Source: Actinoallomurus soli
GTDB taxonomy: Bacteria; Actinomycetota; Actinomycetes; Streptosporangiales; Streptosporangiaceae
Length of the DNA stretch: 64,000 bases
Direction of reading: 5' to 3'
Assembly: GCF_024055715.1 (NCBI RefSeq)
Contig: NZ_JAMXMV010000003.1
Coordinates: forward strand, 434,001 to 498,000
A model generated the notes under the pieces. The model did not search any database, was not told where the DNA came from, and saw nothing but the letters and a program-made list of their open reading frames with translations. A program made the translations under genes and the position numbers. Shown piece by piece: positions 1 to 64,000 of this stretch. Each line of letters starts with the position of its first letter. The first letter of the stretch is position 1.

Positions 1-249
1 GACGGACATCTGGGCGGTGATGGTGGACGCGAGGGTGCGCACGTGATCTCTGGCGGCGTCCTCCGGGGTGCGGTGGTGCGCTCCGGTCGCGCGGTTCTCC
101 CACGTCATGGCGAAGACCGCGTTGAACGTCAGTCCGTCGACGTCGCTGGGCAGCCGCGCCGGGAACTGGGTCTGATGCTCGACGGTGCGCTCGAACAGGC
201 CGCGGATGAACTGCCGGAAGCTCGATCCGGTGGCGTACGAGGTGGTCAT
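1..249 (-). CDS. Uncharacterised protein, N-terminal 83 residues only
   Basis: This gene starts with ATG at 249, overlaps the TGA of the upstream gene as ATGA, and stays open to the left edge, so the C-terminus is missing. The visible protein begins MTTSYATGSSFRQFIRG and contains the segment VFAMTWENRATGAHH. I do not recognise the family. The overlap makes it the third gene of a minus-strand operon behind the cyclase-like protein (2210-3010) and the P-loop protein (246-2213), so a shared role is likely. The Gly/Asn-rich motif shared by those two proteins is absent from the part that can be seen. Confidence 0.75.
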   Translation of the reverse strand, partial: MTTSYATGSSFRQFIRGLFERTVEHQTQFPARLPSDVDGLTFNAVFAMTWENRATGAHHRTPEDAARDHVRTLASTITAQMSV

Positions 250-55398: not shown

Positions 55399-56792
55399 CG
55401 CTGCTGTACGGAGTCGATCCCCGGACCGGCGAACGCCTGGAGCCGGGCGTGCCGGAGACCTCCCCCGAGACGGTCGCCGAGCTGGGCGCCGCCGCCGCGA
55501 AGGCCGCGCGCCCCCTCGCGGAGCTGCCGCTGCCCGACCGGGCCGCGCTGCTGGAGGCCGTCGCCGACGCCCTGGAGGCCGCCGCCGGCGAGCTCGTGCC
55601 GCTCGCCGACGCCGAGACCGCTCTCGGCACCACCCGCCTGAGCGGCGAGGTGGAACGTACCACCGGACAGCTGCGCCTGCTGGCGGGCGAGGCGCGCGGC
55701 GAGGGCTTCCAGCGCGACACCGCCGAGCCCGGATTCGTCCGGGGGCTGCTGCCGATCGGCCCGGTCGCGGTGTACGCCGCGAGCAACTTCCCGTTCGCCT
55801 TCTCGGTCGCGGGCGGCGACACTGCGTCGGCCTGGGCGGCCGGCTGCCCGGTCGTCGTCAAGGCCCACCCCGGCCACCCGCGCACCTCCACCCGTACCGC
55901 CGAGATCATCACCGAGGCCCTCGCCAAGGCGGGCGCGCCCGAGGGGATGTTCGCGCTCGTGCACGGGTTCGAGGCGGGCATGGCCCTGATCAACGACCCG
56001 AACATCAAGGCCGCCGGCTTCACCGGCTCGGTACGCGGCGGGCGTGCGCTGTTCGACGCCGCCGCGAGCCGCCCGGACCCGATCCCGTTCTACGGGGAGC
56101 TGGGCAGCATCAACCCGGTCTTCGTCACCGAGGCGGCCGTCGCCGCCCGCGGCGAGGAGATCGCGCGCGGCTACGTCGGGTCGTTCACGCTCGGGTCCGG
56201 GCAGTTCTGCACGAAGCCGGGCCTGCTGTTCCTGCCCGCCGGGCACGGCCTGGAGCCCGTGCTGTCCGAGGCGGTCGCGGCCGTCGCGGCGCCGTCCCTG
56301 CTGACGCCGCAGATCACCGACGGGTTCCGCGCCGGGGTCGAGCGCATCGCGGGCGAGACCCGGACCGTGGCGGAGAGCGCGGGCGCGCGCCTGTTCGCGG
56401 TGACCGCCGAGGAGTTCGCGGCGCGGCCCGAGCTGACCGAGGAGTGCTTCGGCCCGACCTCGATCATCATCGAGTACTCCTCGGAGGAGGAGCTGCGGGC
56501 GGCCGCGGCCGCCGTGCCCGGCTCGCTCACCGCCAGCCTGCACGCCGAGCCGTCCGACGCCGACCTGGCGCGCGGCCTCGTCGCCGAACTGGCCCGGCAC
56601 GTCGGCCGGATCGTCTACAACGGCTGGCCCACCGGTGTCGCGGTCAACCACGCGATGCACCACGGCGGCCCCTGGCCCGCGACGACGTCGCCGCTGCACA
56701 CCTCGGTCGGCACGGCCGCGATCCGCCGCTTCCAGGTCCCGGTCTGCTTCCAGGGCCTGCCCGAGGAGCTGCTCCCGCCGACCGTGCGCTGA
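55395..56792 (+). CDS. Aldehyde dehydrogenase, ketoglutarate-semialdehyde type
   Basis: A 465-residue ALDH. The catalytic Cys is in GSGQFCTKPGLLF, the general base Glu in FYGELGSINPVFV, and the cofactor loop in FTGSVRGGRALFD. The short-spaced FGE.SSIN-like pattern (here YGELGSINP) and the end block ATTSPLHTSVGTAAIRRFQV match the alpha-ketoglutarate semialdehyde dehydrogenase group used in non-phosphorylative sugar-acid pathways. It would give 2-oxoglutarate for the TCA cycle. Confidence 0.9.
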   Translation: MTLLYGVDPRTGERLEPGVPETSPETVAELGAAAAKAARPLAELPLPDRAALLEAVADALEAAAGELVPLADAETALGTTRLSGEVERTTGQLRLLAGEARGEGFQRDTAEPGFVRGLLPIGPVAVYAASNFPFAFSVAGGDTASAWAAGCPVVVKAHPGHPRTSTRTAEIITEALAKAGAPEGMFALVHGFEAGMALINDPNIKAAGFTGSVRGGRALFDAAASRPDPIPFYGELGSINPVFVTEAAVAARGEEIARGYVGSFTLGSGQFCTKPGLLFLPAGHGLEPVLSEAVAAVAAPSLLTPQITDGFRAGVERIAGETRTVAESAGARLFAVTAEEFAARPELTEECFGPTSIIIEYSSEEELRAAAAAVPGSLTASLHAEPSDADLARGLVAELARHVGRIVYNGWPTGVAVNHAMHHGGPWPATTSPLHTSVGTAAIRRFQVPVCFQGLPEELLPPTVR

Positions 56793-56799
56793 TATTCCG

Positions 56800-56828
56800 T
56801 TGCCGACGTGATCCCCCGCCCGTACCCT
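56800..56828 (+). promoter_or_regulatory. Candidate promoter for the tRNA-like elements
   Basis: TTGCCG (56800-56805), a 17-bp spacer and TACCCT (56823-56828) resemble a housekeeping promoter that would start a few bases before the first tRNA-like element. A weaker repeat of this upstream block precedes the second element. Confidence 0.4.
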
Positions 56829-56837
56829 CCGGGAAAT

Positions 56838-56910
56838 CGGCGTGTAGCTCAGCAGCCGGAGCACCGGGCTCTCATCCCGGAGGGCGCGGGGGCGGCACCC
56901 GCCACGCCGG
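56838..56910 (+). ncRNA. tRNA-like element 1 (anticodon-loop CUC), non-canonical T loop
   Basis: These 73 nt fold as a tRNA. Acceptor CGGCGTG pairs with CACGCCG (7 bp), D stem GCTC/GAGC, anticodon stem CCGGG/CCCGG with loop CTCTCAT (anticodon CUC), a five-base variable region and T stem GCGGG/CCCGC, with discriminator G. All stems are perfect. The T loop is GGCGGCA instead of TTCRANY, and the D loop lacks GG, so normal tRNA tertiary contacts cannot form. No CCA is encoded. It is probably not an elongator tRNA. It is the first of a tandem pair with 117-bp period. Confidence 0.8.
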
Positions 56911-56954
56911 CGATGTTCCGTTGTCGCGTGCGGCTCCTACGCTGAGGCGGCGAT

Positions 56955-57028
56955 CGGCGTGTAGCTCAGTCAGGCAGAGCACCGGGCTCGGGACCCGGAG
57001 GGCGCGGGGGCGGTACCCGCCACGCCGG
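56955..57028 (+). ncRNA. tRNA-like element 2 (anticodon-loop CGG), ends at start codon of next gene
   Basis: These 74 nt have the same acceptor, D, anticodon and T stems as element 1, all perfect. The anticodon loop is CTCGGGA (anticodon CGG, proline-like). The D loop AGTCAGGCA has GG, but the T loop is GGCGGTA. The discriminator G is at 57028 and the ATG of the next gene is at 57030, so 3' processing of a tRNA-like end would free an almost leaderless mRNA. The two elements differ mainly in the anticodon and D loops. Confidence 0.85.
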
Positions 57029-57029
57029 C

Positions 57030-59249
57030 ATGGTTCCTCCCGAGGTTCGCGTCGGCGCCGGGTACCCCTCACGGCAGCTGGCCAAGGCGTTCACGACCGC
57101 GTCGAGTCACGAGGACCCCGAGACCCGGCGGCGCGCGGAGGAGCGCGTGCGCCGCTGGGAGCGGATGCTGACCGGGATGGCGGACGGCACCGTGACGGTC
57201 GGTTCGCGCACGCCCGTCGCCGGGTTCCCGGCCTGGGTCACGCCAGAGGTCGTCCGCGGCGGCTTCGCCACCGGTGCGGCCGCCGCCGGCGGGCCGCTGC
57301 TGCCGCACGAGGCCGAGACCGCGCGCCGGGCCGGCGTGCCCGCCGACCGGTACGCGCTGTTCCGCCACCACCTCACCGACGCGGGCCTGACCGAGCTGTA
57401 CGCGCTGCTGGACGGCGGCGCGTACGACGTCACCCTGCCGGAGGAGGCGGCGCTGCTCACGGTGGCGTGGCTGCTGCGGGCGGGCGACCGGCTCGCCGCG
57501 CTCACGCTGCTGGAGACGATCCACCCGTTCGCCGGCCGGCTGCGGTTCGCCCCGCGCCCGGCCGCCGCGCGGCCGCCGGGCGGTGCGGTCGTGCACCGCG
57601 AGACGGTCGGCGAGGTCCGCGACACCCTCGACGGCCGCCGCCCGAACCACGCCGTCGCGACGATGAACGAGGCGCTCACCGTCTGGAACCCCTTCGCCGA
57701 CGAGCTCCTGACGCACTGGCTGGAGACGGTCGAGGCCGGCCGGGTCGGGAGCGCCGAGCCCGACGGCTGGCGGGAGCGCGGGGCGGCTCTGCTCGCGCGG
57801 TACCGGGACCTCGCGGCCGTCCACACCCTGTGCACGAAGCACCGCCGCCCCAAGGAGAACCTCGCGATCCTGCGCGCCGCGCTGGAGGAGAGGGTCGCCG
57901 GGCGCGGCCTCGACCCGCGGCGGCGCGGGCTGCTGCAGCACGCGGTCGACTCCATGATCCGCCGTCGCGGCGTCCCTGGATCGGCGGAGCACGTCGCGCT
58001 CCGTACGGCCCAGGCCCGCAACGCCTCCCGTCCCGCCCTGCACGCCCTGGCCCAGGTCCTCGTCGCGCGCCTGGCGGACCTGCCGCCGGACGCCGGCCTG
58101 CCCTCGGTCGACGAGGTGCTCCGGCCGGTGACCGAGGAGGAGTCCCGCAAGGGTGCGCCCGCGGGCGCCGAGGTCCCGGACGCGCTGCGGCGGATCGTCG
58201 AGCGGGCGCTCAGCGCCCCGATCGCCACCCTGGTCGAACGCGGCCTCGTCCCGTCCGCCGAAGTACTGGCCGAGCTCGTCCCCCAGCTGGTCGCGGTGAC
58301 GACCGCCGAGGCGTACGAGGACGCCGCGCTGCGCACGCTGATGACGGCCGTCTACCGTGCCTTCCGGAACCGACGGTCCCTGCTCCTGCTGAACCTGCGG
58401 AGCCAGGTGCGGCTGGAGGAGCTGCCCTGGGTCGGCGCGGTGGCGGGGTACCGCTCGACGACTGCGGGCGGCGGGCCTGCGCGGACCGCCCTCGTACGGC
58501 TCGGGGAGCTCGCGCTGCAGGGCTTTCCGGGGACGATCCTGCCGAACCCGCTGATCCAGGAACTGTCCGCGCTGGCCCGGGACGCGGGTCTCGACGTGCC
58601 GTTCACCGAAGAGCTGGCCGCCGACATCTTCATGGGGACGTTCTCCCCGAAGTTCGGGCGGGCCGCCCGGCTGGCCGCGGACGTGCTGGAGGGCACGCTG
58701 TACGAGCGGTACTACGGGATCGACTACGCGGCGGTCCGCGGCCTCACCGAGCCGGACCGGTTCGCGGCGGTGTGCCGTGGGCGGGCCGGGAACCCGGCGG
58801 AGGGCTCGTGGGTCGCGGCCAACGGCATGGTCGTCGAACAGGCGCAGATCCTGACGACGCACAACCTCGCCGCGCTCGTCCACCCGATCGGCGTGGACCC
58901 GGCCGGGGGCTGGGCGGACCTCGCGCGCCGCGCGTTCACGACCGTGTGCCGCCGCGTCGCCCAGGTGGAGGGGAACCGGCGCCCGCTCGGCACGATCAAG
59001 GACGCCGCGTACGCGTGGCGGCAGGTGGTCTTCTTCCTGTCGCTGTGCGGCCTGGAGGACCAGATCACCGTCATCGCCGGGATTCAGGAGGAGACCCGGC
59101 GCCACCCGGAGCACGTCGTACGCCGGCTGGCGCCGGTGCTCGCCGGGCTGCGGCACGTGCTGGTGGGCGGCGCCCTGGACGACGGGGGCGCCCCGAGCGC
59201 CCGCCGCCTCACGGGCTGGAGCGCGAACGGCCATTGGATGCGGAGTTGA
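57030..59249 (+). CDS. Large helical protein of unknown family linked to tRNA-like elements
   Basis: A 739-residue soluble protein, mostly alpha-helical, with no domain that I recognise. Sample blocks are TRRRAEERVRRWERMLTGMA, WVTPEVVRGGFATGAAAAGG, ALLTVAWLLRAGDRLAALTL, NHAVATMNEALTVWNPFADE, LCTKHRRPKENLAILRAALE and FMGTFSPKFGRAARLAADVL. It has no signal peptide, no membrane helix and no obvious nuclease or methylase motif. ATG 57030 is one base after tRNA-like element 2 and lacks a ribosome site. The tight link suggests that the protein and the RNAs act together; Ro60/Y-RNA loci are an analogy only, as I see no TROVE or vWA signature. Confidence 0.85.
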   Translation: MVPPEVRVGAGYPSRQLAKAFTTASSHEDPETRRRAEERVRRWERMLTGMADGTVTVGSRTPVAGFPAWVTPEVVRGGFATGAAAAGGPLLPHEAETARRAGVPADRYALFRHHLTDAGLTELYALLDGGAYDVTLPEEAALLTVAWLLRAGDRLAALTLLETIHPFAGRLRFAPRPAAARPPGGAVVHRETVGEVRDTLDGRRPNHAVATMNEALTVWNPFADELLTHWLETVEAGRVGSAEPDGWRERGAALLARYRDLAAVHTLCTKHRRPKENLAILRAALEERVAGRGLDPRRRGLLQHAVDSMIRRRGVPGSAEHVALRTAQARNASRPALHALAQVLVARLADLPPDAGLPSVDEVLRPVTEEESRKGAPAGAEVPDALRRIVERALSAPIATLVERGLVPSAEVLAELVPQLVAVTTAEAYEDAALRTLMTAVYRAFRNRRSLLLLNLRSQVRLEELPWVGAVAGYRSTTAGGGPARTALVRLGELALQGFPGTILPNPLIQELSALARDAGLDVPFTEELAADIFMGTFSPKFGRAARLAADVLEGTLYERYYGIDYAAVRGLTEPDRFAAVCRGRAGNPAEGSWVAANGMVVEQAQILTTHNLAALVHPIGVDPAGGWADLARRAFTTVCRRVAQVEGNRRPLGTIKDAAYAWRQVVFFLSLCGLEDQITVIAGIQEETRRHPEHVVRRLAPVLAGLRHVLVGGALDDGGAPSARRLTGWSANGHWMRS

Positions 59250-60244: not shown

Positions 60245-63200
60245 TCAGTCGCTCGCCATGATCATGGCCTCGGTCGCCCGCAGACGACCGTCACGGCGGC
60301 GCTCCAGCCAGGTCACGCCGGCCGCGAGAGACCTGAACCGGTCGCCCAGCTCCCGTTGTCTCCTGATGTCGGCTTCGACGGCGAGGCAGAGCGCGCTGAG
60401 ACGCAGCCGGGTGGCCGTCGGCGGGGTGAGCTCATGCTCGCGCGCGAAGACGGGGTCTGCTGCCTTCTCCAGGGCGTCCGCCGTCTCGGCGGCCCACATG
60501 GTGGACGGCAGCAGGTTCACCGGCTCCAGCAGCAGCCGTTTGACGTCCGCGACGCTCTGGGTGAGGAGCGGCCGCATCTCGTCCGGGGAGACGATGTGGT
60601 CGGCTGCCGCCACGTCGGTCACGTCCGTGAACAGGGCCGCGAAGCCGGCGGCGATGTCCTCGGACGGTGACGCGATCACCCCGGCGATGCTCCGGGACAG
60701 CGCGTGACCGACCGACAGGTCGTGGACGGGGCCGTGACCGGCGTGCCGGCGCGTGCCGCGCTGCCGTCCCGGTGCGGAGCGGCGGCCGTCCCTGCCCAGG
60801 TCGTACGCGACGGCGCGAAGGGCACTGCCGATTCGGGCGAAGTCCTCCTGATGCCGCGCCATGTCCTTGCCGGCACGTTCGAGGACGGCCGACAGGCCCG
60901 TCACGAGGTCACGGGCCAGTTCGCGGGTGAAGTCCCGTAGTTCCGCAGGGGGCATTTCGGCGGTCAGGTGTGCGACGGTCTCCTTGATCCGTGGCGTCTC
61001 CAGGCGCAGTCCGGCTTCGAGGTTCAGGCCGATGTCGAGTGCGCCGATCAGCCCGGTTTCCAGCGCGCCGCCCAGCGCCGCCGCGAGGTCGACCGCCCGT
61101 GCGAGCGCCTTGTCGAGACCGAGGTCCGCTGCGGCGTCCAAGAGCAGCAGGATCGCGGTGGCGGTGGACTTCGCCCGTACGAGGGCCAACGCGACCAGGA
61201 CGGAGATATTGCCGGATATGTCAGTGGTGACGTCGTCGTGGACCACCGCGCCGTCCACGCTTCCCGGGTGCGCCGATCCGTCGGGCACCCAGAGTTCGAG
61301 CGTCCCCTCTCCTGTTCGGGTCCAGTAGCAGCGGGCGTCGTCCGGCGAGCGGACGATCCGCTGAACCTTGTTGTCGGCCAGTTCGTCCGGAGTCGGCAGC
61401 CGGTAGAAGGACTCGTTGCCCGACAGACGATTGACCCAGTTGAGGAACGCCGCCGTGTCGCTCGCGCGGACACCGGTCACCACGTCACCGGGCCCCTCGC
61501 CGTCCGGGGCGCGGTTCTCCTCGGTGTCGAGCATGAAGAGCCCGTAGATGTGCTTGCTGATGGGCAGCGCACAGACGCGGCGACCGCCAGAGGTGACGAC
61601 GATGCGCCGCAGGTGCCGTGCCACCGCGACCCCCGCGATCAGCCGGCGTCGCTGGGGATCGGTGCTGCCCGTGTCGTCCAGGACGGCGTTGAGCTCGTCA
61701 CGCAGCTCGGGGACCAGCTCGTTCCCCTCGTCGGCGCATTCGAACGCCAGAGCCAGCGCGGTGGTGGTGCCCGACCGCAGGCACGCCCGCACGATGGGGC
61801 TGACATCCGCCCGAGCGGCGTAGAGCAGAGTGCACTCCTGCCACCATTCGTCGTCCACCGCCTCGACGAGAACCGAGATCATTCCCTTCTCCGCGATGTG
61901 CGCCGCGGCGAGGTACTCCTGGAACGTGAAGTGGGTGAACGCATAGACGCCGTTCTCCCGCTCGATCAGCAGACCGTTCGTACTGACGTCGTCCAGGAAC
62001 GACTCCGCGGACAGCTCACGCGACACCCGGCGGACGGCGCTCCGGAGAATGACCAGGCAGTCGTCCCGGGTCAGATCGCGCACCCTGCGGCGCATCATCG
62101 TGTACGCCAGCAGCCGCAGCAGCATCTCCTTCTGCCGGCCACGCGGCTCGACCAGCAGCTTCTTCGCCTCCTGCCGCCGCCAGAGCATCACCTGGCAGAT
62201 CTCTCCGTACAGGTCGGAACGGCTGCCCGGCAGCACCCCGTGGAACCGGTGCACGTTGGCGACCATCGTCAGCAGCAGCGGATTGGCGGTCAGCTCATAG
62301 ATGCTGGGCGACTCGCGCAGCCGGGTGAGGAGCGTCTCCGCGCCCTCTCGGGAACGGGCGAGGAAATCGTCGGCCACTTCGGCGGAGGCGTGTCGTTCGA
62401 TCGCGACGTACCAGCCATGAACGAACCGGGAGATCTGGTCGTCCGTGAACCTCCGGGTCTGCAGAACCGTGGCCCCGTCGACGGGCGTGGCCTGATAGCC
62501 GCGCGGGCGTGACGTGATGACGTAGTCGTTGTTCGGGTACTCGCGCGTCTGCCGCTCGATCCAGTCGGCCACGGCGCGACGGCCCTCCGGAGAGGCGATC
62601 TCGTCGAGCCCGTCCAGGAGAACGACGCAGTTGCCGTCCCGCAGCTGCCGATCGAACCAGCCGGGCGGCTCGCTCCCGGCGAGCCGCCCGAGCGTGGTGG
62701 ACAGCACCTCGGGCAGCCCGATCCGCGCCTCGCCGACGAGCGAGGCGGCGTGGTCACGGAGGAAGAGCAGGATCGGCACCGTACGGCGCCGGCCCTTCTG
62801 CTCGCGGCAGATCCGCCGCGCCGTGTAGCGCAGGAGGGTGGTCTTCCCGCTTCCGGGGGCGCCGACGATCGCGACGACCACGGGGTCGGGCGCGTCGATG
62901 AACTCGGAGATGGACCGCCGCTTCGCCGACTCCGGAACGGGGTCGGCGAGCAGGTCTTCGGGAATCTGGTTCGGGGCGCGGAGCGCGAGGCTTACGTCGA
63001 CGAAGACCTCATCGAGTTCCGGCGTGTAGAAGCCGGCCCGCGTCAGGCCCTTCTGGTCGATCTTCCGGAGGCTGCCGGCCAGATGCTCGAGGTAGCGGCG
63101 CTTGAACCGGGTGAATCGAATGCCCAGGGCGCGGTCCGCACCGTCGAGCCAGGATGCCCGCCTGCGCTGGACCAGATCGCGAACGAACCCGGCGACGAAC

Positions 63201-63376
63201 CGGCCGACGGTCAGCACGAGCCAATAGGCGACGAGCAGGAGTGCGGCGGTGGCCCAGTGCCGCCGGACGAAGTCCCGCCAGATCCCCGCCACCGCCGTCG
63301 GCGGGACCAAGAACGTCGCGAGCCAGGCCACCTTCGGCAGCCCGGTCCACAGGTCGCCGTTTTCCTTGGGGGGCAT
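60245..63376 (-). CDS. Membrane-anchored NACHT NTPase with FGE-like C-terminal domain
   Basis: A 1043-residue STAND protein; ATG 63376 (AGGAGAG upstream) is chosen. One or two membrane helices lie at about 15-65 (VAWLATFLVPPTAVAG and AALLLVAYWLVLTVG). The NACHT core has Walker A GAPGSGKT (172-179), Walker B VVLLDGLDE (251-259), YVITSRPRGY and FQEYLAA. About 590-700 resembles a formylglycine-generating-enzyme (SUMF1) fold: GVRASDTAAFLNWVNRLSG, YRLPTPDEL and CYWTRTGEG. Bacterial NACHT proteins include antiphage sensors. It lies 25 bp after eccC, possibly in its operon. Confidence 0.9.
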   Translation of the reverse strand: MPPKENGDLWTGLPKVAWLATFLVPPTAVAGIWRDFVRRHWATAALLLVAYWLVLTVGRFVAGFVRDLVQRRRASWLDGADRALGIRFTRFKRRYLEHLAGSLRKIDQKGLTRAGFYTPELDEVFVDVSLALRAPNQIPEDLLADPVPESAKRRSISEFIDAPDPVVVAIVGAPGSGKTTLLRYTARRICREQKGRRRTVPILLFLRDHAASLVGEARIGLPEVLSTTLGRLAGSEPPGWFDRQLRDGNCVVLLDGLDEIASPEGRRAVADWIERQTREYPNNDYVITSRPRGYQATPVDGATVLQTRRFTDDQISRFVHGWYVAIERHASAEVADDFLARSREGAETLLTRLRESPSIYELTANPLLLTMVANVHRFHGVLPGSRSDLYGEICQVMLWRRQEAKKLLVEPRGRQKEMLLRLLAYTMMRRRVRDLTRDDCLVILRSAVRRVSRELSAESFLDDVSTNGLLIERENGVYAFTHFTFQEYLAAAHIAEKGMISVLVEAVDDEWWQECTLLYAARADVSPIVRACLRSGTTTALALAFECADEGNELVPELRDELNAVLDDTGSTDPQRRRLIAGVAVARHLRRIVVTSGGRRVCALPISKHIYGLFMLDTEENRAPDGEGPGDVVTGVRASDTAAFLNWVNRLSGNESFYRLPTPDELADNKVQRIVRSPDDARCYWTRTGEGTLELWVPDGSAHPGSVDGAVVHDDVTTDISGNISVLVALALVRAKSTATAILLLLDAAADLGLDKALARAVDLAAALGGALETGLIGALDIGLNLEAGLRLETPRIKETVAHLTAEMPPAELRDFTRELARDLVTGLSAVLERAGKDMARHQEDFARIGSALRAVAYDLGRDGRRSAPGRQRGTRRHAGHGPVHDLSVGHALSRSIAGVIASPSEDIAAGFAALFTDVTDVAAADHIVSPDEMRPLLTQSVADVKRLLLEPVNLLPSTMWAAETADALEKAADPVFAREHELTPPTATRLRLSALCLAVEADIRRQRELGDRFRSLAAGVTWLERRRDGRLRATEAMIMASD

Positions 63377-63401
63377 CGTCGCGTTCTCTCCTGGGGGTGG
63401 G

Positions 63402-64000
63402 TCAGGTGTTCGACGGCCGCGTCCGCTCGACCGCGGGCTCGTCGGCATCGGTTCCGGGGGCGAGGGCCGTCTGGACCAGGCGATTACCGGCCCTCCGATC
63501 GACCAGCGTGCCGCGACCCGGCGGCAACGCCCGCGGGCGCACGTCGCCGAACAGCATGCCCTCGTCCCGGGGGCCGGACATGATCAATGCGGGGGTGGCC
63601 ATCTCGCGCAGCGCCTGGACGACGGGGTCGTACAGCGCACGAGACGCACCGTTGATCGACCGGGCGATGATGAGATGCAGCCCGACGTCACCGGCCTGCC
63701 GGATGAGTTCGGCGAGCGGCAGCAGCGGGTTGCCGGATGGTGTCGCGACGAACTCGTAGTCGTCGACGACCACGAACAGGTCCGGCCAGTTCCCCCATGA
63801 CCGGTCCCGCAGCTGTTGCGGGGTCAGGCTCGTCGGCGGCAGCCGATTCGTCAGCGCGGCCCGGACATCTTCGATCAGCTGTGCCGTGGCCGCCGACGAC
63901 ACCGCATAGCCGATGCGGTGCTCGGTGTCCGCCGCGTCCATCAGCAGGGACCGGCGGTAGTCGATGAAGACGAACCGCGCCTCCTCGGGCGTGTAGCGCT
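63402..64000 (-). CDS. eccC: Type VII secretion ATPase EccC, C-terminal part
   Basis: Only the last about 200 residues are in the window; the gene continues beyond the right edge. The visible part matches the third ATPase domain of EccC: EEARFVFIDYRRSLL, DLFVVVDDYEFV, GDVGLHLIIARSINGASRAL, IMSGPRDEGMLFG and LPPGRGTLVDR. EccC drives export of WXG100 proteins across the membrane. The WXG-like sets elsewhere in the window could use this machine. The stop is TGA at 63402-63404, 25 bp before the NACHT gene. Confidence 0.9.
   Translation of the reverse strand, partial: RYTPEEARFVFIDYRRSLLMDAADTEHRIGYAVSSAATAQLIEDVRAALTNRLPPTSLTPQQLRDRSWGNWPDLFVVVDDYEFVATPSGNPLLPLAELIRQAGDVGLHLIIARSINGASRALYDPVVQALREMATPALIMSGPRDEGMLFGDVRPRALPPGRGTLVDRRAGNRLVQTALAPGTDADEPAVERTRPSNT

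Follow-up and report, generated by a model that had tools for sequence, protein, structure and literature searches.

tRNA-like folds close ahead of a gene start are familiar as operators of autoregulated genes, such as thrS of Escherichia coli. By analogy, the nearest described system in idea to the locus considered here is the bacterial Y RNA and its Ro60 partner: YrlA is a small RNA that mimics tRNA and is encoded beside Ro60/Rsr, the TROVE protein (PMC7790460; PMC7824862). The present locus lies in a 64 000-nucleotide (nt) window of Actinoallomurus soli (contig NZ_JAMXMV010000003.1, positions 434 001 to 498 000), where two tRNA-like elements stand in tandem directly before the gene for a 739-amino-acid (aa) protein, and in many actinobacteria one to four such RNAs immediately precede a gene of this family. 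This looks like an undescribed RNA–protein partnership and not ordinary translation machinery. No description of the pair was found in the open-access PubMed Central literature, a scope that leaves subscription papers and preprints aside, and membership of the TROVE family was rejected at the sequence level (hhalign probability 0.1% for the family against nine actinobacterial TROVE frames). For these two reasons we rate the tRNA-like RNA and its protein, on their sequences, as a categorically new gene pair, for whose function only inferences can be offered.

All coordinates are those of the window. Element 1 spans 56838–56911 on the forward strand, with the anticodon CTC at 56871–56873 and the T loop GGCGGCA at 56891–56897; element 2 spans 56955–57029 on the same strand, with the anticodon CGG at 56989–56991 and the T loop GGCGGTA at 57009–57015. 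Their starts are 117 bp apart and a 43 bp spacer separates them. Both were called by ARAGORN and by the Rfam tRNA model RF00005 (44.2 and 49.6 bits, above the gathering score of 29), with no further calls in the window, and all four stems are paired in both. Element 2 ends in a discriminator G (57028) followed by C (57029), and the protein gene (57030–59249, forward strand) opens immediately 3′ of it, so that the Shine–Dalgarno position falls on the element's own bases. An earlier, sequence-only reading of this DNA had described two such elements with complete acceptor, D, anticodon and T stems, the anticodons CUC and CGG and these T loops, placed ahead of a large helical protein with no recognised domain. 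The coordinates, the stem pairing, the position of the open reading frame (ORF), the family searches and a nearly all-helical AlphaFold2 model bear this description out.

The linkage of RNA and protein is close to certain. One genome from each of 84 980 species was scanned with exact peptide patterns taken from the window protein, a search that reaches close relatives only; of the 185 relatives the best 80 were kept, and 79 of these 80 loci have an upstream element. The sequence-only reading had proposed to look for such elements before homologues and would have been contradicted by their consistent absence, which did not occur. It had also suggested a covariance model as a check. The model used here (R1), built from 60 elements, scores the window elements at 87.5 and 91.4 bits, both being among its building sequences. 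Within the window's family the protein occurs in 24 of 200 genomes, the window genome counted; R1 matches of at least 74 bits were found in exactly these 24, beside the protein gene, and in none of the other 176, where the best match (67.7 bits) was an ordinary tRNA-Val. An ordinary tRNA-Arg in one protein-bearing genome scored 67.8 bits.

The association extends to wider surveys. In the class, the protein was present in 27 of 394 genomes, with an element at all 14 newly fetched loci (13 genomes), the other 14 genomes being already known to have one. Streptomyces gave a protein match in 43 of 295 genomes, some matches being fragments, and an element at all 12 loci chosen from 11 of the positive genomes; six plasmid records carry the protein, and all four fetched plasmid loci have the element. 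A survey of the phylum found the protein in four of 396 genomes, again counting the window genome, and the most distant carrier (G425), which belongs to another class and is the sole carrier among 66 genomes of that class, has two elements. No relative was found in phage records or viral contigs. Patchy occurrence and copies on plasmids point to possible horizontal movement of the module. We note that seven Streptomyces loci (L195–L201) encode short paralogues of 488–625 aa that lack the N-terminal part, with an element immediately before the ATG in 7/7. At a further locus (L188, genome G762) the gene has lost an internal part, and the remaining 163-aa open frame matches only the two ends of the protein; the upstream element is retained.

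The RNA is a plain cloverleaf of 72–75 nt. For the 114 distinct sequences among 129 elements in 100 loci, 99.8% of cells form standard pairs, against at most 47.5% in slid controls, and 11 of 21 pairs are altered on both sides, in 149 cells; in 500 shuffles neither the pairing nor the double-change values were reached. This alignment was fitted to the structure of the model. A plain MAFFT alignment of the first 60 elements gave 99.9% paired cells and double-sided changes in eight pairs and 69 cells; 36 of 500 shuffles equalled it in the number of pair types alone. A second plain MAFFT alignment, of 33 sequences including distant clades and covering the 21 stem pairs and the tertiary pair 19–56, gave 98.9% paired, 10 pairs and 87 cells changed on both sides, slid controls of at most 45.7% and a pair-type number matched by 91 of 500 shuffles. 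Kinship alone can beat shuffles without any structure, a pitfall against which the slid controls protect better. The acceptor stem has mostly been exchanged in the distant clades (for example CGACGTG/CACGTCG vs CATGGAG/CTCCATG), whereas C1–G72 is found in all 114 elements of the main set. Compensatory changes, whose absence from related genomes the earlier reading had named as counting against it, are present across the relatives.

That reading had also held that the T loops make the usual D–T contacts impossible, which proves too strong. The D loop has AG at what we take as positions 18–19 in 114 of 114 distinct elements, and G55C56 is present in 113. The canonical elbow of G18G19 with U54U55C56 is thus lacking in the main family and is found in eight of nine elements from distant clades (GG with TTC; the ninth has AC with TTC). 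The ordinary tRNAs displayed, compared by eye, have GG/TTC in 7/7 rows (six distinct). In the 33-sequence alignment 23 rows combine AG with G55C56, and one row, element 2 of the window, combines GG with G55C56; its D loop, AGTCAGGCA, can be read with either AG or GG at 18–19 (the alignment gives GG, the count AG), so that it joins an ambiguous position 18 to a T loop with GGC. The difference of the main family from both the distant clades and ordinary tRNAs indicates that positions 18 and 55 were switched jointly, from G/U to A/G, with G19–C56 retained, and A18 may pair with G55.

Against this near-invariant body stands the anticodon. Where a canonical tRNA keeps one anticodon per isoacceptor body, about 29 triplets occur among the 114 distinct elements on a single body, the stop anticodons TCA (three) and CTA (one) included; the loop is six bases long in four elements and four bases short in one. 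Columns 34–36 have an entropy of 1.5–1.8 bits, C32 and U33 are present in 114/114 and position 34 is a pyrimidine in 100/114. On a protein tree of 48 of the 50 aligned loci (L105 was omitted as its element lies outside the set, and L109 as it has none), the minimum number of changes per column was 20 at positions 34–36, 11.5 at 37–38 and 0 at 32–33, compared with 0.7 in the anticodon stem, 5.4 in the T loop and 6.3 in the D loop, the last being an average that excludes two gap-rich columns (3 and 15 changes). Among 39 between-locus pairs that are identical over the other 71 columns, and are not independent of each other, the anticodon differs in 18, at all three positions in seven. Two to four copies are present in 22 of 100 loci and the anticodon loop differs in 34 of 38 tandem pairs, which together support a trans-acting RNA. 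One locus (L077:5643-5954) has four tandem elements, three of them with an identical loop, and one spacer there retains TATGAACGACGACG, which duplicates the start of the coding sequence. In several Streptomyces the N-terminal coding sequence, by eye, resembles the 5′ end of the element.

The protein itself matched nothing in Pfam (E≤1), PADLOC, NCBIfam or PHROGs (each E≤0.1), so that none of the PADLOC-DB families of known anti-phage systems is represented at that threshold, and nothing among PDB sequences (E≤1), also when searched through a profile of 50 homologues. Those homologues gave only scattered Pfam matches at E≤1, each in one to three of the 50, with none to TROVE. The full AlphaFold2 model is nearly all-helical (predicted local distance difference test, pLDDT, 88.1; predicted template modelling score, pTM, 0.77) and that of the C-terminal half reached pLDDT 86.8 and pTM 0.86. 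Foldseek returned no fold match for the models at E≤0.001; many of the weaker neighbours are helical-repeat proteins, which hints at, and does not prove, a helical solenoid. Polar residues that are invariant in 16 diverse members, for example E603, Q606, T609, T610, N612, K657, W663 and R664, suggest a putative binding or active site.

A sigma-70-like promoter is predicted ahead of element 1 (56800–56828, forward strand; −35 TTGCCG at 56800–56805, a 17-nt spacer and −10 TACCCT at 56823–56828), its −10 box 9 nt upstream of the element. Of 99 distinct upstream regions, 72 have the pattern TTGnnn-16..19-TAnnnT, ending 8–13 nt ahead of the first element, against a mean of 0.24 and a maximum of 2 in 200 shuffles, although the pattern was defined post hoc from sequences already inspected. 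A promoter-like copy ahead of element 2 (56921–56943, forward strand; TTGTCG and TACGCT) is probably weak, given its spacer of only 11 nt, and element 2 may be transcribed by read-through from the first promoter. The idea of a regular promoter ahead of each tandem copy was dropped on account of this 11-nt spacer.

Genes around the locus show little regularity. When mechanical ORFs of at least 110 aa between stops were clustered for 84 loci, no partner gene was conserved throughout; the largest clusters represent various frames of the gene itself, and the next to reach into the flanks occurred in 12/84 loci. From 69 of the 80 loci (11 near-duplicates omitted), 136 predicted adjacent genes were taken, long ones cut to 330 aa; they matched 33 PADLOC families at E≤1e-10, the best 25 of these having at most four members each; the matches listed include mad2 (4), type I specificity and methyltransferase (2) and mad3 (1). 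Pfam gave mixed families, the commonest among the best 25 of 111 being 2-oxoacid dehydrogenase (7/136). No regular defence island was evident among the immediate neighbours. Near the locus in the window, a 1067-aa frame (60245–63448, reverse strand) has weak matches to NACHT-like ATPases, and it matched the antiphage EruA model at E 1.9e-6 with 26 bits, the cut-off being 1000.

In the sequences, a promoter-like site is followed by one to four tRNA-like RNAs, the first about 8–13 nt past the −10 box, and then by the protein gene, and we propose that these form a self-contained module. RNase P and RNase Z would excise the RNAs and, with the start codon 0–2 nt after the element, 3′ processing of the tRNA type would yield a nearly leaderless mRNA, with 1–3 nt ahead of the start codon, that could be translated as such. 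The protein, predicted to be all-helical and perhaps a solenoid, would bind the conserved body and rewired elbow, and the bound RNA would present its hypervariable anticodon loop as a bait, decoy or probe for factors acting on tRNA anticodon loops, anticodon nucleases of phages or competitors being candidates; free or cut RNA might then alter the activity of the protein. We consider it rather probable that the RNA and the protein associate in a particle. A module in which the protein binds the RNA body and the anticodon loop serves as bait or probe is a possibility to which we give somewhat less than even weight, and the fuller scheme, with a rewired elbow, a diversifying loop as bait or specificity element and maturation to a leaderless mRNA, is put forward tentatively; that the loop is specifically a bait is doubtful. 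The earlier proposal of a separate RNA–protein system built on tRNA mimics is strengthened in its first part, by near-universal co-occurrence, compensatory changes and the lack of a TROVE link, and its suggestions that the mimics may bind or guide the protein, or act as sensors or decoys, stay conjectural.

Several observations weigh against this proposal. Other loop columns also vary on the 48-locus tree (19 and 15 changes in the D loop, the latter an indel column, and 14 and 11 in the T loop), as does position 26 (11 changes), the highest values in the D loop (19) and the T loop (14) coming near those of the anticodon, and the anticodon variation could be relaxed constraint. In the short Streptomyces paralogues the loop is almost fixed (GCA in 6/7), which at the same time speaks against a loop that merely mutates fast. 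Actinoplanes sp. M2I2 (L109) is the sole locus of the 80 without an element, the protein match there beginning at query residue 30, and the few defence matches among immediate neighbours leave an anti-phage role without contextual support. The strongest competitor, unlikely in our estimate but to be taken seriously, is a cis-acting leader, the fold serving its own mRNA as a signal for leaderless-mRNA processing or as an operator through which a tRNA-binding protein regulates itself. An in-frame start codon opens a frame of at least 600 aa 0–2 nt past the element (C74) in 97 of 100 loci, a spacing that suits a cis role equally well; the promoter-like site lies at a fixed distance, and 78 of 100 loci have a single counted element. 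Against it stand the two to four copies with mostly unlike loops at the other 22 loci and the hypervariable anticodon, for which a processing signal has no use; moreover, distant homologues keep the element even though a spacer and an apparent ribosome-binding site lie between it and their gene, which argues that it is not merely a leader. Compared with operators of the E. coli thrS type, which also place a tRNA-like fold close ahead of a gene start, this family has the full tRNA shape, compensatory changes in all four stems, tandem copies and a variable anticodon, and no known tRNA enzyme downstream.

Another explanation, which we consider improbable, is a particle like that of Ro60 and its Y RNA, in which the mimic would act as a gate or tether for an RNA-processing protein and the anticodon would be unimportant. 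Both systems are sporadic in bacteria and have a tRNA-mimicking RNA encoded beside a possibly RNA-binding protein, here one predicted to be helical, and ARAGORN calls tRNAs, perhaps Y RNAs, near three of 11 actinobacterial TROVE loci (L133, L135 and L138). Yet the window genome has no TROVE match, the family shows no TROVE similarity, and neither a nuclease partner conserved throughout nor a conserved repair or decay enzyme was found beside the gene at 84 loci; the RNA is instead a plain cloverleaf, mostly 0–2 nt before the start codon, whose loop varies while C32 and U33 stay fixed. Still less probable are chargeable tRNAs dedicated to a purpose outside the ribosome, the protein then being an enzyme that depends on aminoacyl-tRNA. 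The well-formed acceptor, the invariant C32 and U33, the tRNA-like 3′ end and the conserved polar residues of the protein would suit them, but some 29 anticodons on one acceptor body, with stop anticodons and six-nt loops among them, and the universal C1–G72 would not, and no conserved synthetase or transferase was seen among the clustered ORFs or adjacent genes. Ordinary tRNA genes or pseudogenes standing before the gene by chance can practically be dismissed, being refuted already by the exact co-occurrence with the protein across 200 genomes. The tRNA finders do call the elements, which share with ordinary actinobacterial tRNAs the cloverleaf, C32–U33 and, in most members, G19 and C56, and which pass the RF00005 threshold in the window; they differ in their D and T loops, with mostly A18/G55 in place of G18/U55, in having dozens of anticodons per body and in being strictly tied to a single protein gene, and a tRNA-Pro(CGG) of the host's own lies elsewhere.

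It is rare for a small RNA that mimics tRNA to be bound so strictly in its occurrence to a single protein family. The contrast in this family between a fixed body and a variable anticodon separates the part that is probably read by the protein from the part that is changing, and the layout of the genes allows the idea to be tested directly. If the leader explanation is true, these loci would represent a new route to leaderless mRNA; if the anticodon loop is a bait, they would reveal that these bacteria are engaged in an arms race in which tRNA anticodons are at stake.

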